Source of the DNA: Parvibaculaceae bacterium
GTDB taxonomy: Bacteria > Pseudomonadota > Alphaproteobacteria > Parvibaculales > Parvibaculaceae
Length of the DNA stretch: 64,000 bases
Reading direction: 5' to 3'
Assembly: GCA_029209985.1 (NCBI GenBank)
Contig: JARGNZ010000008.1
Span: 5,054-69,053, forward strand
Part shown: positions 39,481 through 54,900 of the stretch, piece after piece
How the letters are laid out: every line of letters begins with the position of its first letter
How positions within the stretch are numbered: position 1 is the first letter of the stretch
Translations under genes and position numbers: made by a program
The notes under the pieces: model-generated
Told to the model about the DNA's origin: nothing
What the model saw: only the letters and a program-made list of their open reading frames with translations
The model's database searches: none

Positions 39481-40326
39481 TTAGTCAATGTGAACCAATC
39501 CGCGATACGCATGCCAACTGGCGTGCCCAATCAGTGGAAAAGCCACAACCATACCCACCATGAAAGTCGCCATGCCCACGACCGTTACCATGGTGATGAT
39601 CCATCCCCACAACATCATCGGCCAAAAGTTTTCTTGAACCGTCCGCAAGCTTAGGAGCATGGCTGATAACGCATCAACATCGCGCACCAGTAACATAGGC
39701 ACCGAGATCACGCTGATTGAAAAACAGAAAACAGCAAACACCCCGCCCAAAAGGGACCCGACCACAAGCAGACCGAGCCCGTGCGGCGTGAACAACAAGG
39801 TCGGCAAAAAGTTTTCTAAACTGGGCATCACTTGTGAGCCGAAGAACAGCGCAAACAGCAAAAGCGCAATACGCATCCAAACCAGCAACAAAAGCGAAAG
39901 AACAAAGGCAAGAAAAGCTAATTGCGAGGGGGCCTTTGCCTTCACAAAAAAGACCGCCCTAAGGCTGAGTGCCTCCCCGGCCTCACGCCGTCGGCTCGCC
40001 TCATACATGCCCATCGCCAACATGGGGCCCAACAACATAAAGCCCGCCCCAAGCGCCAAAGCAACTGGCCCCCATTGGGCTACAAACATGCCACCGACAA
40101 TGAGAAAGGAAAGTGCCGCAAACCCAGCCCCATAACAAAGGCTATAAAGGGGCATGGCCGAAAAATCTGCCCACCCCGCAGCGAGCCAACTCCATGGCGC
40201 ATCTGCCCTAATTTTTTTAATATGTGCTTCACCAGCACTCCCAAGCGAAAGTGTCACTTGTTTTCCCCCTCCGCGTTCCGCGCTCTTTTTAGATACGTTC
40301 CGCTTTCCATTTGCCATTTCAGCCAT
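39481..40326 (-). CDS. DUF2189 family integral membrane protein
   Basis: 281 residues, about six membrane segments between residues 60 and 275 (for example AALSFLIVGGMFVAQWGPVA, VGMATFMVGMVVAFPLIGHA). The conserved DUF2189 elements are PWSWLAAGWADF near the N-terminus, LGPMLAMGMYEASRRREAGE in the middle and GHASWHAYRGLV at the end. Function of the family is unknown. ATG 40326 follows a strong GGAGGA; a further in-frame ATG at 40380 has none. It converges on the kinase gene with 19 nt between the stops. Confidence 0.88.
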   Translation of the reverse strand: MAEMANGKRNVSKKSAERGGGKQVTLSLGSAGEAHIKKIRADAPWSWLAAGWADFSAMPLYSLCYGAGFAALSFLIVGGMFVAQWGPVALALGAGFMLLGPMLAMGMYEASRRREAGEALSLRAVFFVKAKAPSQLAFLAFVLSLLLLVWMRIALLLFALFFGSQVMPSLENFLPTLLFTPHGLGLLVVGSLLGGVFAVFCFSISVISVPMLLVRDVDALSAMLLSLRTVQENFWPMMLWGWIITMVTVVGMATFMVGMVVAFPLIGHASWHAYRGLVHID

Positions 40327-40796
40327 GGCTTTTCCTCCGCTGGGGACCACCCGATCGATATAGTAGGTGTCAGAGATCAAAATGAAAGCACTTGAGCCAT
40401 TTTGACGCGGTTTTTTAGTAAAAACTCAGCGAAACCATCCAAAGCAGACCAAATACAGAAATTTTGGGCATTCATTTTTCAGAATCGATTCTTGCACGGG
40501 ACCGTTTTCGAGAAGTTATTTTCAGATTCGGACCTCAGCCACAGTCAACAGCCCCCATGAGTCGAGAGCTGAAAATTCTTCATAATTGAACGCGAAATAT
40601 TATTACAAATCTTGGTGGCGTTGAGATAAGAAATTACAAAAAATCCGCTCCCCACTAAAGTGCGCTGCGGCATTCGGGCACAGCTCAAAAAAATATTTTG
40701 AGAATACGGAGTATTTTTACAAACAATATCAATGACTTGAGGAATTTGATACTGACTATCATGTAATTACGTATGTGTGCACCGCACAAAACATTG
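40327..40796. other. Intergenic stretch without recognised gene
   Basis: 470 bp, AT-rich in the second half. It should contain the promoter of the DUF2189 gene. A TCAAAAAAATATTTTGA dyad at 40685-40701 is visible. A second promoter-like pair, CTTGAG at 40736 and TATCATGT at 40758, could serve the small RNA downstream under a heat-shock-type sigma factor, but this is weak. No protein gene is credible here. Confidence 0.4.
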
Positions 40797-40825
40797 TTGA
40801 CAATTCGTCAGAAACTAACGATAAC
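40797..40825 (+). promoter_or_regulatory. Sigma-70-like promoter of the CCUCCUCCC small RNA
   Basis: TTGACA at 40797-40802 (perfect -35), 17-nt spacer, GATAAC at 40820-40825 (4 of 6 with TATAAT). Transcription would begin near 40831-40833, immediately before the first hairpin of the small RNA. Confidence 0.7.
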
Positions 40826-40830
40826 TGCTC

Positions 40831-40926
40831 TCGAAAGACGCAGCCACCCCTCCTCCCAAGGCTTGCGTCTTGCGTTAAATGGCCGTCTGTGCTCCCTCCT
40901 CCTCCTCCCTTGCACAGACGGCTTTT
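40831..40926 (+). ncRNA. Small RNA with two CCUCCUCCC hairpin loops (cuckoo / CcsR / alpha-r14 type)
   Basis: About 95 nt. Hairpin 1: AAGACGCA (40835-40842) pairs with TGCGTCTT (40864-40871), GCC with GGC inside, and the loop ACCCCTCCTCCCAA contains CCTCCTCCC. Hairpin 2: GCCGTCTGTGC (40882-40892) pairs perfectly with GCACAGACGGC (40912-40922); its 19-nt loop is pure pyrimidine and again contains CCTCCTCCC; TTTT follows, so it doubles as terminator. Exposed CCUCCUCCC is complementary to Shine-Dalgarno sequences. This is the architecture of the alphaproteobacterial cuckoo family (CcsR RNAs of Rhodobacter, alpha-r14 of rhizobia), stress-linked post-transcriptional regulators. A good promoter sits in register. 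Family membership is inferred from structure. Confidence 0.8.
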
Positions 40927-40985: not shown

Positions 40986-41492
40986 TCAGGCGCTGTCAGA
41001 CGTGGCCGACCGAATGGTGACTGGACGAAACACAGCACCCACCACCGGTCCGCTCATCCATGCCCGCATGTCCCAAGTAGCCGGAGGACTGTTGCCCGCC
41101 GACGGGCCCTCAACCGGCCCCTGCGCTTCATCACGCCCCCCCAGGATCACCCACACCTTGCCAGCCTCAAAAGCGTGCTCCCTGTCAAATCTCGAAGGAA
41201 CCGCTTGGCTGCTTGGATGGGAATGATAAAAGCCAATCACCTCTTGAGCATCCTGAGCCGCACGCGCACGGCGATGCGCCTCAAAAAGTGCTTTAGGGTC
41301 AATCTCAAAAAACTGGGTCTGGTCTTTAGGGCTGGTATTAAGCGTATCGATCACATCGCACACCCGCCATCCGGTTGGTGTCCTCTGGCCCATGAGGATA
41401 CCGCACGCTTCATTGGGAAAAGCCACCGCTGCAGCCTTTTCCATGGCACCACGCCAACAAACATCTAAAATGAGCGTGGCAGCGGCCTCCAT
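40986..41492 (-). CDS. JAMM/Mov34 (M67) metallopeptidase-like protein
   Basis: 168 residues. The zinc-binding JAMM signature is complete: HSHPSSQAVPSRFD (H-x-H-x7-S-x2-D) with an upstream Glu in NEACGILMG. Bacterial members of this type resemble archaeal JAMM proteases and the peptidases that trim sulfur-carrier or ubiquitin-like proteins. No ubiquitin-like carrier, ThiS/MoaD or E1-like gene is adjacent, so the substrate is open. It overlaps the upstream gene by one base (TAATG) and is cotranscribed with it. Confidence 0.88.
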   Translation of the reverse strand: MEAAATLILDVCWRGAMEKAAAVAFPNEACGILMGQRTPTGWRVCDVIDTLNTSPKDQTQFFEIDPKALFEAHRRARAAQDAQEVIGFYHSHPSSQAVPSRFDREHAFEAGKVWVILGGRDEAQGPVEGPSAGNSPPATWDMRAWMSGPVVGAVFRPVTIRSATSDSA

Positions 41493-41878
41493 TACTCAGG
41501 CACGGCGACAGTTGGCGTCAACACCAATTCACGCACAACCTCTCCCGTATCAGGGTCCAGCAACATCACAGAACGCCCTTGCGGCTGTTTTAGGTCCACC
41601 GCGAGATAGTCTTTGCCAAAATATGTCCGCAAAACCTCTGCATCCGCTGGAATCTCTACCAAAACACGTCCATTGGTGGTGGATTTCATCGTCGAGAAGC
41701 GATAGGCAATGGTTCCCATGACCGAGAGGAATCCAAGAATGAGGATAATCCCCATTCCGATGACACCGGCCAACATCCGTTTCTGGCGAGCTGAAAGTTC
41801 CGGCTTAAGACCTTCGCCATCAATTGAGCTATGATGCTCGTCCACTTCTGCAGCCATTTGATGGGTACTCTCTGCCAT
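41492..41878 (-). CDS. Single-pass membrane protein (DUF6476-like)
   Basis: 128 residues. Polar N-terminus, one membrane helix (about 36-62, LAGVIGMGIILILGFLSVMG), and a small extracytoplasmic domain with VEIPADAEVLRTYFGKDYLA and VMLLDPDTGEVVRE. The overall pattern fits a short alphaproteobacterial family of unknown function usually found beside rluD. ATG 41878 is preceded by AGGAG; the in-frame TTG at 41899 is less likely. The start codon physically overlaps the divergent rluD start. Confidence 0.75.
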   Translation of the reverse strand: MAESTHQMAAEVDEHHSSIDGEGLKPELSARQKRMLAGVIGMGIILILGFLSVMGTIAYRFSTMKSTTNGRVLVEIPADAEVLRTYFGKDYLAVDLKQPQGRSVMLLDPDTGEVVRELVLTPTVAVPE

Positions 41879-42929
41879 GTCTTCTCCTGATCTTCCCAAT
41901 GTTGATAGTCATTTAGACGCTGCCGACGAAACCGTCGAACTAACCGTCACCGACGCAGACACGTCCCAACGCTTGGATCGCTTTCTTGCCGCCGCCCTAG
42001 AGGACCGCGAAGCGCCCCCAAGCCGTTCTCGTATTCATGCCCTTATTGCACAAGGCCGCCTAAGCAGGCTCACCCCGCAGGGTTCGCGGACGATAAGCGA
42101 CAGGTCTTACCGGGTCAAACTCGATGAGGTGTATACGCTCATCATTCCCGCCCCCTTGCCTGCAACGCCGATCGCCCAAGACATCCCATTAGATATTCTA
42201 TACGAGGATGACACCCTCATTGTCGTCAATAAAGCCGCAGGCATGGTTGTGCATCCAGCACCCGGCGCACTAGATGGCACCTTGGTCAATGCCCTGCTGG
42301 CCCATTGTGGCGACAGCTTCCAAGGCATTGGCGGCGAACAACGCCCCGGCATCGTGCACCGCCTAGATAAAGAAACCTCTGGTGTCATGGTCGTGGCCAA
42401 AACAGAGCCTGCCCTGCATCACCTCCAACTACAATTCGCCGCCCACGGACGTGATGGCCGCTTAGAACGTGCCTATACCGCCCTCGCATGGGGGGAAATT
42501 CAGCCCCCAAAAGGGTCCGTTGATGCACCAATCGCCAGGTCCCCACACAATCGGCGTAAAATGGCTGTGCGCAAAACCGGCGGCAGAGAGTCAATCACAC
42601 ACTTTGAAGTGCGCAAATCATTTGGCGACCCGATCATCGTGAGCCAAGTTGAATGCCGCTTGGAAACAGGCCGTACACACCAAATTCGCGTCCACCTCAC
42701 CCACATGGGCCATCCTTTGCTCGGCGACCCAACCTATGGCGGCAGTCAAAAAACCCGCCACAACAAGCTCACAGAGGGCGCACAAAACGCTTTGGCAGAC
42801 CTCAGCCGCCAAGCCCTGCACGCCCACGAATTAGGCTTTGACCATCCCAAAACAGGTGAACATATGGTTTTTCGCCAAGAATTACCGGATGATATGGCCA
42901 AATTGATTGCTGAACTCACTGATATGTGA
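41877..42929 (+). CDS. rluD: 23S rRNA pseudouridine synthase RluD-type
   Basis: 350 residues. Makes pseudouridines in helix 69 of 23S rRNA. An S4 RNA-binding domain (about 30-90, SQRLDRFLAAAL to YRVKLDEVYTL) precedes the catalytic domain with HRLDKETSGVMVVAKT (catalytic Asp), LETGRTHQIRVHLTHMGHPL and GDPTYGG. RluD rather than RluC is likely from the S4 domain and length, but not certain. ATG 41877 is the only suitable start; no purine-rich site precedes it, so translation may be leaderless or weak. Confidence 0.9.
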   Translation: MSSPDLPNVDSHLDAADETVELTVTDADTSQRLDRFLAAALEDREAPPSRSRIHALIAQGRLSRLTPQGSRTISDRSYRVKLDEVYTLIIPAPLPATPIAQDIPLDILYEDDTLIVVNKAAGMVVHPAPGALDGTLVNALLAHCGDSFQGIGGEQRPGIVHRLDKETSGVMVVAKTEPALHHLQLQFAAHGRDGRLERAYTALAWGEIQPPKGSVDAPIARSPHNRRKMAVRKTGGRESITHFEVRKSFGDPIIVSQVECRLETGRTHQIRVHLTHMGHPLLGDPTYGGSQKTRHNKLTEGAQNALADLSRQALHAHELGFDHPKTGEHMVFRQELPDDMAKLIAELTDM

Positions 42930-43120: not shown

Positions 43121-44119
43121 ATGTCGAAAACACCTACCAGCACCGCTACCAAAAAAGCAGCGGCAAAAAAAGCGGCACCAAAAGCTCCGACAAAAAAAGC
43201 GACTTCCTCCTCCGCCAAATCCATCATGCCCGCCATGACCCCCGAGGGTAGCCTGTCCAAATATTTGCAGGAAATTCGCAAATTTCCAATGCTGGAACCG
43301 CAAGAAGAATACATGCTGGGCAAACGCTGGAAAGAGCATGAAGATTCCGAAGCAGCGCACCGTATGGTAACAAGCCACTTGCGCCTTGTGGCCAAAATTG
43401 CCATGGGCTATCGCGGCTACGGCCTGCCCATTGGGGAAGTCATTTCGGAAGGCAACGTGGGCCTTATGCAGGCGGTCAAACGGTTTGAGCCTGAAAAAGG
43501 ATTCCGCTTGGCAACGTATGCCATGTGGTGGATCCGCGCGTCCATCCAAGAATATATTTTGCGTTCTTGGTCATTGGTCAAAATCGGCACCACAGCAGCG
43601 CAAAAGAAACTCTTCTTCAATTTGCGCAAAGTAAAAGGCCAACTCAAAGCCTTTGAAGAAGGAGACTTGCACCCCGAAACGGTCAGCGAAATCTCCACAC
43701 GCCTTGGTGTGACCGAGACAGAAGTGATCACAATGAACCGGCGCATGTCCGGCCCTGATAACTCCCTCAATGCGCCTCTACGCCATGACGGGGAAGACGG
43801 GGAAGAGTGGCAAGATTGGCTCGTCGATGAAAGCGCAGACCAAGAAGTGGAGCTGGGTGACCAAGAAGAATTGAACCAGCGCCGCGACATGCTTGCCTTG
43901 GCCATGCAGGAGCTGAACGAACGCGAAATGGACATCCTCACGGAGCGACGCTTGAAAGATAGCCCTTCGACATTGGAGCAATTGTCTCAGAAATATAGCA
44001 TCAGTCGGGAACGGGTCCGCCAAATTGAAGTACGGGCCTTTGAGAAGCTTCAAAAAGCAATGCACAAAGCCATGCAGTCCCAACAGATCGACCATCGCGA
44101 AGCCCTTGAAGCAATGTAG
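43121..44119 (+). CDS. rpoH: RNA polymerase sigma-32 factor RpoH with a basic N-terminal extension
   Basis: 332 residues. RpoH directs heat-shock and stress transcription. Core: LSKYLQEIRKFPMLEPQEEY (region 1.2), HRMVTSHLRLVAKIAMGYRG (2.1), FRLATYAMWWIRASIQEYIL (2.3-2.4), the RpoH box QKKLFFNLRKVKGQ, and region 4 SISRERVRQIEVRAFEKLQ. Unusual: about 35 extra N-terminal residues made almost only of Lys, Ala, Thr, Pro and Ser (KKAAAKKAAPKAPTKKAT), like a histone H1 tail. The start is sound (GGGAG before ATG 43121). Followed by its own terminator. Confidence 0.95.
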   Translation: MSKTPTSTATKKAAAKKAAPKAPTKKATSSSAKSIMPAMTPEGSLSKYLQEIRKFPMLEPQEEYMLGKRWKEHEDSEAAHRMVTSHLRLVAKIAMGYRGYGLPIGEVISEGNVGLMQAVKRFEPEKGFRLATYAMWWIRASIQEYILRSWSLVKIGTTAAQKKLFFNLRKVKGQLKAFEEGDLHPETVSEISTRLGVTETEVITMNRRMSGPDNSLNAPLRHDGEDGEEWQDWLVDESADQEVELGDQEELNQRRDMLALAMQELNEREMDILTERRLKDSPSTLEQLSQKYSISRERVRQIEVRAFEKLQKAMHKAMQSQQIDHREALEAM

Positions 44120-48848: not shown

Positions 48849-48914
48849 TCAAGGCGGGGTCGGTAGAAAGACGCGCACACCACAGCATGCACACTTCTGA
48901 AAGCAGGTCACCCG

Positions 48915-49000
48915 TCCCTTCGCCGGCATGACCCGGATCAGGTTTTAAGGGTTCGGCTTACGCCATCTCAGACCCAATAAATAGATAGTGGGACACCCCT
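48915..49000 (-). ncRNA. TPP riboswitch upstream of thiC
   Basis: Read on the - strand the THI element is nearly consensus: GGGGTGTCCC, then GGGTCTGAGATGG, ACCCTT, AACCTGATCCGGGTCATGCC and GGCGAAGGGA. These are the pyrimidine- and diphosphate-sensing arms of the thiamine pyrophosphate aptamer. The aptamer end is about 150 nt from the thiC start; the expression platform lies in that gap, but I could not tell whether it ends transcription or hides the ribosome site. Confidence 0.95.
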
Positions 49001-49197
49001 CGGTTAGGTGCAGTGTGCCCTGCTCACGCGCCCACGTAAAGCACGAGATTGCCTTTAGGGCTGCTGCAGCGACAGGAACCAATTTCACATTCTCCTCGGG
49101 CCGCCGCTTGCATAAAACAACGATGGGAACCAATGTTTACAGGAGCCTGACACCTCAGGGGGCCACCCCCCTTAAACCCCTTCAGAAAGGATACCGA

Positions 49198-53657: not shown

Positions 53658-54818
53658 CTATTTAGACGCTTCAGCAAATGCCCAGTCGAGCCATGGCAAC
53701 AATGCTTGCATGTCAGCCAACTCAATCGTTGCCCCTGCCCAAATCCGAAGACCTGCAGGCGCATCACGGTATGCACCGATGTCATAGGCGATACCTTCGC
53801 CGTCCAGCAGCGTTACGATTTTCTTAGCGAAAGCCGTTTGCTCCTCATCAGACAGTGCGGTAATGGCCGGATCGACAACTTTAAGGCAAACCGATGTGTT
53901 GGAACGTGCATTCACGTCTTCACACAAGAAGTCGACCCAAGAAGTTTTCTCAACCCATTCAGCCATCAATGCCAAGTTCGCATCAGCCCGTCCAATCAAA
54001 GACGACAGACCACCAATGCTTTCTGACCATTTCAGCGCATCAAGATAATCTTCAACTGCCAACATAGAAGGCGTGTTGATTGTCTCACCCTTAAAGATGC
54101 CTTCGATCAATTTACCACCTTTAGTAAGGCGGAAAATTTTCGGCAACGGCCAAGGCGGCGTATAGTTTTCCAACCGCTCCACAGCCCGTGGAGACAAAAT
54201 AAGGATGCCGTGTGCAGCTTCGCCGCCCAAAACTTTCTGCCAAGAAAAAGTCGTAACATCCAGCTTGTTCCAAGCAAGGTCCTGCGCAAATGCAGCAGAC
54301 GTTGCATCACAAATGGTCAAGCCTTCACGATCGTCCGCGATCCAGTCACCATTGGGAACCCGCACACCAGAGGTCGTGCCATTCCAAGTAAAAACAACAT
54401 CATTGTTGAAATCGACTGCGCCCAAATCTGGGAGCTGCCCGTAAGGCGCTTCCAATTTGCGGACATTGTCCAGCTTGAGCTGTTTTACCACATCGGTAAC
54501 CCAACCAGAGCCGAAGCTCTCCCAAGCCATCATGTCAACACCGCGTGCGCCTAACAATGACCAAAGCGCCATTTCAACAGCGCCCGTGTCAGACGCAGCA
54601 ACAATGCCGATACGATAATCGTCGGGCACGCCCAATACAGAACGTGTGCGATCGATGGCTTCGGCAAGCTTAGCTTTACCGATCTTTGCCCGGTGCGACC
54701 GGCCCAAAGCTGCATCTTCAAGATTTTTGAGTGACCAACCGGGACGCTTAGAGCATGGCCCAGAAGAGAAATGTGGATTCGACGGACGGTGGTCCGGAAT
54801 AGTAGTGCTAGCTGTCAT
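53658..54818 (-). CDS. serC: Phosphoserine aminotransferase SerC
   Basis: 386 residues. SerC converts 3-phosphohydroxypyruvate to phosphoserine with PLP. The start [20 protein letters not shown] and [10 protein letters not shown] are typical of the alphaproteobacterial/archaeal-type SerC subfamily; the PLP lysine is in [18 protein letters not shown] 54818 is preceded by GAGGG. First gene of serC-serA; a leader RNA candidate lies upstream. Confidence 0.95.
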
Positions 54819-54900
54819 AGCTACCCTCACAGATAGAAGCCTCTCGTTGGGGAGAGGTGGCCCGAGACCGATATAGGCTTCCCCCACGCTCAAGTCAAAT
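54819..54900 (-). ncRNA. Candidate serC leader RNA
   Basis: Between the serC start and about 54900 two competing hairpins can form on the - strand: CCTCTC/GAGAGG (54840-54857, 6-nt loop) and GAAGCCT (54836-54842) with AGGCTTC (54875-54881). They share bases 54840-54842, so they exclude each other; the element ends next to the ribosome site of serC. A serC leader motif is known from alphaproteobacteria at this position. Identity with that family is inferred from context and structure. The rest of the gap to 55059 shows no gene. Confidence 0.5.

Follow-up and report, generated by a model that had tools for sequence, protein, structure and literature searches.

A conserved single-copy small RNA of the Parvibaculaceae with two anti-Shine-Dalgarno loops and putative PhaR and TetR sites at its promoter

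Results

A small RNA gene between the DUF2189 and JAMM genes

In the 64-kb stretch of Parvibaculaceae DNA that we analysed (hereafter the window), an intergenic locus has the features of a small RNA (sRNA) gene, and comparison with related genomes gives good support to its being a real, previously unannotated, single-copy gene that is orthologous throughout the Parvibaculaceae. By sequence comparison the locus comprises a predicted promoter, two hairpins with loops predicted to be unpaired, a palindrome, and a PhaR-type box, and a single-copy tetR gene elsewhere in the genome shares the palindrome. Our preferred reading, which we hold at a probability of roughly 0.7, is that the product would be a trans-acting RNA that masks Shine-Dalgarno sites and is gated by PhaR together with a TetR-family regulator of acyl-CoA and monooxygenase genes.

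The preliminary description of this DNA had proposed a promoter and two hairpins here, and both are present. The -35 hexamer TTGACA (40797–40802, + strand) is separated by 17 nt from the -10 hexamer GATAAC (40820–40825, +), the two together spanning 40797–40825; the former is invariant across 32 of 32 relatives, and GATA is kept in most of them. Based on the spacing from the -10 hexamer, a transcript of ~95 nt is predicted (40832–40926, +), beginning with hairpin 1 (40835–40871, +), whose loop at 40846–40859, ACCCCTCCTCCCAA, includes CCUCCUCCC. Hairpin 2 (40881–40923, +) has 12 bp and a 19-nt, all-pyrimidine loop at 40893–40911, TCCCTCCTCCTCCTCCCTT, and leads into TTTT (40923–40926, +), the U-tract of an intrinsic terminator, found in genera g1, g3, and g4. 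The fold of the locus (-42.4 kcal/mol, z -6.7) was equalled by none of 200 shuffles, and in all 32 copies the CCTCC stretches of the loops are predicted to be unpaired (p 0.95–1.00; ~1.0 for the hairpin 1 loop), so that the two CCUCCUCCC loops and TTTT end claimed earlier are borne out by sequence, fold, and, as described below, covariation. Both copies of the motif CCTCCTCCC in the 64-kb window are at the sRNA, compared with 0.31 expected in the window; 3 of 100 shuffles also have two, and CCTCCTCC words number 65 in the genome; motif count alone makes a weak case for an sRNA, and it is conservation that carries the case.

RpoH promoters are expected to carry a CTTG box. The base preceding TTGACA in the relatives is A (13), G (13), or T (5) and never C, thus this box is absent, and the promoter reads as sigma-70-like in every relative. 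These 32 promoter copies were found with a model of the transcript or by whole-locus similarity, without use of the promoter; in the loci L083–L105 the invariant TTGACA, GTCA, and GATA were imposed by the search pattern, and the promoter argument is therefore built on the copies found by the transcript model (R1, below). A 62-residue ORF overlying the locus looks spurious, as had been suspected, since 9 of 32 homologues have a stop in this frame among the first 42 codons counted from the -35 hexamer and, where the frame is open, the residues show no conservation from genus to genus.

The left neighbour of the sRNA encodes a DUF2189 membrane protein (39481–40326, -; PF09955, 2.2e-37) and the right neighbour, convergent with the sRNA, a Prok-JAB/JAMM protein (40986–41492, -; PF14464, 8.1e-22), followed by genes for an RluD-type pseudouridine synthase (41877–42929, +; PF00849) and an RpoH-type sigma factor (43121–44119, +; Sigma70_r2/r4). 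The DUF2189, RluD, and RpoH genes serve as synteny markers, which in the case of rpoH does not imply control of the sRNA: in most homologous loci the sRNA is followed by rluD and then rpoH, DUF2189 lies upstream of it in three genera, and the JAMM gene also adjoins it in genomes G001, G009, G015, G019, and G031, i.e., synteny holds where JAMM exists. Elsewhere in the window, a TPP riboswitch (48898–49010, -; 74.3 bits) and a serC leader (54816–54867, -; 61.3 bits) scored over threshold.

Conservation, covariation, and distribution

A sister species has 87% identity at the locus, including a double change in stem 1 from G-C to A-U. As this species was the sole match in a DNA BLAST search over the relatives, a covariance model was needed to go further; a BLAST search of plasmids with the sRNA gave no match. 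Our model, R1, was built on the transcript sequence alone, though partly from loci found by pattern, and it scored 71.9 bits at 40829–40926 in the window. It identified the sRNA in 37 of 40 Parvibaculaceae genomes, including all 27 that are near-complete and all five genera, with essentially one strong copy per genome, and over 385 alphaproteobacterial genomes it returned only family members and two weaker matches. One of the weaker matches (L142/L080, in the region G057:C1:245431–245802) consists of a DUF1127-type ORF followed by ~8 CCUCCUCCC hairpins; this array is a large CIN1-like locus, met here as a control. A search of 84,980 species with the promoter-plus-loop pattern gave only 23 loci (in Parvibaculum, Tepidicaulis, Rhodobiaceae, and unclassified Alphaproteobacteria or Hyphomicrobiales), many of which are the Parvibaculaceae genomes of the family survey.

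Among 18 relatives, compensatory double changes occur at 13 of 18 stem pairs, and the covariation score is 0.571, compared with 0.219 when shuffled and 0.15 or less when the alignment is slid. All six modelled pairs of hairpin 1 show double changes, as do 7 of the 12 pairs of hairpin 2, in which 99.1% of cells are paired; stem pairing and loop motifs are both kept in related genomes. The long pyrimidine stretch of the second loop, noted in the preliminary description, is genuine, but it is not a variant of this genome, a long C/U-rich loop being common in the relatives. In the genus g5 (Parvibaculum) copies of the L111–L128 group, hairpin 2 is followed by CCCTCCC-rich sequence in place of a U-tract, so the 3' end must form differently there. 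In one metagenome-assembled genome (L103; G021:C60:6545–6591) hairpin 2 has an inverted loop, purine-rich instead of pyrimidine-rich, which is either a flip of the hairpin loop or a misassembly.

Relationship to known anti-Shine-Dalgarno sRNAs

With hairpin modules, an anti-Shine-Dalgarno loop in each, and an alphaproteobacterial host, the locus is a cuckoo-type hairpin RNA in the broad sense, and its earlier assignment to the cuckoo/CcsR/ar14 kind of trans-type sRNA with two such loops was right. It had also been said to carry the full blueprint of that family, which overstates the likeness: the covariance search with the Rfam models gave 30.5 bits for ar14 (threshold 58.8), 21.1 for ar7 (60), and 14.9 for CcsR1 (65.3), all under threshold, whereas the positive control SmelA075 scored 89.9 bits in the ar14 model (RF02344). 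A chance match to ar14 elsewhere in the window's genome reached 29.9 bits; we therefore rejected Rfam alone as proof, its matches here being sub-threshold and nearly equalled by chance ones. Likewise, many ar14 matches in the relatives were rejected as orthologues, as they are other hairpins or chance terminators.

The closest likeness in design is to ar14 (RF02344; in Sinorhizobium meliloti NfeR1/Smr14C2 and SmelA075), which also has hairpin modules with unpaired CCUCCUCCC loops and variable stems, a stand-alone intergenic gene, and a U-tailed last hairpin; NfeR1 is in addition transcribed by sigma-70. However, ar14 sRNAs have three hairpins (PMC7143759) where the Parvibaculaceae sRNA has two, SmelA075 lacks the TetR-linked palindrome, the NfeR1 promoter is CTTAGAC-N17-CTATAT as against TTGACA-N17-GATAAC in the window, and the LsrB motif of NfeR1 (TGCA-N6-GCAT, at -72 to -60) contrasts with a TGC-N3-GCA box 7 bp upstream of the -35 hexamer. 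The CcsR1–4/CIN1 RNAs of Rhodobacter (RF02791) are likewise hairpin-built with CCUCCUCCC loops, but CcsR is processed from a DUF1127 (ccaF1) transcript made from an RpoHI/RpoHII promoter (PMC10253847), whereas the sRNA described here has a sigma-70-type promoter and, as the preliminary description correctly stated, no DUF1127 gene, its neighbours being DUF2189, JAMM, RluD, and RpoH. MmgR of S. meliloti (ar8) is repressed by PhaR, which binds the mmgR promoter, and the first of its loops carries an anti-Shine-Dalgarno motif (PMC12542648, PMC7143759); its PhaR site, TGTGCACCGCAGCA, has TGTGCACCGCA in common with the PhaR-type box of the window, but MmgR belongs to another sRNA family, with three stem loops and no Rfam cross-match. 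We regard the Parvibaculaceae sRNA as a solid case of a new lineage within a known kind of sRNA, its wiring being unusual and well conserved.

A palindrome shared with a tetR gene

Overlapping the -35 hexamer is the palindrome TGACA-ATT-CGTCA (40798–40810), a likely TetR operator, which differs by one mismatch (C for T) from the family consensus TGACA-N3-TGTCA. The form TGACA-N3-(T/C)GTCA covers the -35 hexamer in 32 of 32 copies, with the arms fixed save for that single T/C and the centre variable, and because a sigma-70 promoter has no need of the second arm, the palindrome is probably an operator. Exact palindromes number 3–8 per genome, counts modestly above chance; the palindromes shared by each of the six genomes examined, from five genera, are the ones at the sRNA and at tetR (in this comparison the sRNA palindrome of G000 has one mismatch). 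In 6 of 6 genomes, again from five genera, an orthologous TetR-family gene is immediately preceded by an exact palindrome, which more widely is present in 29 of 29 upstream regions of that gene, with 0.000 expected in shuffles. The tetR gene itself is single-copy and was found in 39 of 40 Parvibaculaceae genomes (27 of 27 near-complete ones). Motif and co-occurrence together point to this TetR protein as the candidate that would bind at the sRNA.

In three genera, pimC-like acyl-CoA dehydrogenase genes are also preceded by the palindrome, and further copies lie near genes for flavin monooxygenases, a P450, and short-chain dehydrogenases. Among the PDB relatives of the TetR protein are butyrolactone-type receptors (AvaR1) and, as a weaker match, a regulator of fatty-acid metabolism; its ligand is probably an acyl-CoA or a related metabolite. 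Two genus g5 (Parvibaculum) genomes (L147:1501 and L148:1501) have a PhaR-like TGC-N3-GCA box along with the TGACA palindrome upstream of a gene for a small membrane protein, which is followed by a MarR-like gene.

A PhaR-type box upstream of the promoter

At 40778–40789 (+), 7 bp upstream of the -35 hexamer, lies the putative PhaR operator box TGCACCGCACAA, an exact match to TGCRNYGCASMA, the PhaR consensus deduced with footprinting in Bradyrhizobium, where the PhaR site of the phaP1 promoter is 6 bp upstream of the -35 hexamer and PHB releases PhaR from DNA (PMC6201568). The consensus is found at a constant position upstream of the -35 hexamer in the relatives, exactly in 23 of 31 and with at most one mismatch in 30 of 31, with 0.01 exact matches expected in shuffles, and the centres of box and palindrome are 22–24 bp apart. 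A phaR gene is present both in the window's genome and in each of the five genera tested; the sRNA may belong to the PhaR regulon.

An exact PhaR consensus box also lies just upstream of SmelA075 on pSymA of S. meliloti (L227:338–349) and of its homologues L228–L231, with exact boxes at 5 of 7 such loci; the TGACA palindrome was not found at the SmelA075 loci, and SmelA075 is not listed in the published PhaR regulon paper. Control by storage polymer may thus be an old, overlooked trait of such sRNAs.

Discussion

Proposed mechanism and candidate targets

From these features we infer transcription, binding by the two regulators, the direction of regulation, and the kind of target. The sRNA would be transcribed by sigma-70 and act in trans, each of its loops pairing with purine-rich, GGGAGGAGG-like Shine-Dalgarno sites and so blocking ribosome binding; this mode of action is drawn from NfeR1 of S. 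meliloti, in which the same loops act redundantly and silence target leaders (PMC10746234, PMC7143759). PhaR would repress transcription while PHB is absent and TetR while its ligand is absent, the PhaR box and the TetR palindrome in the promoter suggesting release from two repressors and hence expression during storage and acyl catabolism. Levels of the sRNA would then rise during carbon storage and acyl-type catabolism, and it would trim the translation of mRNAs whose Shine-Dalgarno sites are strong. As for specific targets, exact GGGAGGAGG occurs 3–9 nt from an ATG four times in the window's genome, none of them before a convincing gene, and the scan was rejected as a target list as it gave nothing usable. 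The gene after tetR (L173:255–1286(-), L224) encodes a conserved protein with no Pfam or NCBIfam match, and in several genera its leader frequently contains GGGAGGA(GG); as this sequence could pair with the sRNA loops, to which it is complementary, the gene is a candidate target. We give even odds to the broader proposal that the sRNA would be the RNA arm of a carbon-storage and acyl-CoA circuit, gated by PHB-sensing PhaR and an autoregulated TetR repressor.

Alternative readings

The preliminary description called this a stress-type RNA, and a CcsR-like general stress sRNA under an RpoH-type sigma factor would indeed share the hairpin and loop design; a syntenic rpoH-type gene also lies 2.2 kb downstream. 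Adjacency to rpoH does not show control, however, and the TTGACA-17-GATA-type promoter without CTTG, the lack of DUF1127, and the CcsR1 score far below threshold leave this reading quite improbable; the stress label lacks support, and what the promoter has instead are a PhaR-type box and a TetR-linked palindrome. Another candidate reading is an NfeR1 equivalent that responds to nitrogen, is under the control of LsrB and NtrC, and silences ntrBC. In its favour, NfeR1 has been studied more closely than any other ar14 sRNA, carries the same loops, and is likewise under sigma-70 (PMC10746234), but the promoter hexamers and box layout differ and the palindrome sits on the -35 hexamer here, and we doubt this reading strongly.

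We also judge it unlikely that other proteins bind the palindrome and the TGC-N3-GCA box and that the palindrome at tetR is a coincidence: TGACA-N3-TGTCA does fit the T-N11-A spacing of, e.g., a LysR-type regulator, and the box centres are 22–24 bp apart, but this has to be set against the exact palindrome upstream of every one of the 29 orthologous tetR genes and the frequency of the exact PhaR consensus (23/31) over expectation. That the locus is only a terminator, attenuator, or DNA-level element between genes, with no sRNA, we consider very improbable indeed. In three genera, hairpin 2 with its U-tract would serve well as an intrinsic terminator; on the other side, the locus has its own conserved promoter and two covarying hairpins with conserved loops, the genus g5 copies lack the U-tract, and both flanking genes in the window are on the minus strand. 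The regulator-gated, Shine-Dalgarno-masking sRNA therefore remains our preferred reading.

Significance

Alphaproteobacterial anti-Shine-Dalgarno sRNAs are known mainly as stress and nitrogen sRNAs of rhizobia and Rhodobacter. At the Rfam thresholds the Parvibaculaceae branch is missed; it is a single-copy gene, near-universal in its family, and a pair of candidate regulators can be named for it. Parvibaculum and Tepidicaulis offer a cultivable, compact test case for how an sRNA that is generic in sequence may be made specific by the timing of its switch-on, and since S. meliloti SmelA075 also has the PhaR box, a general link of carbon storage to the tuning of translation can be tested directly. 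In the Parvibaculaceae, the switch of this sRNA appears to answer to carbon storage and fatty-acid-type metabolism, and not to heat or light stress.
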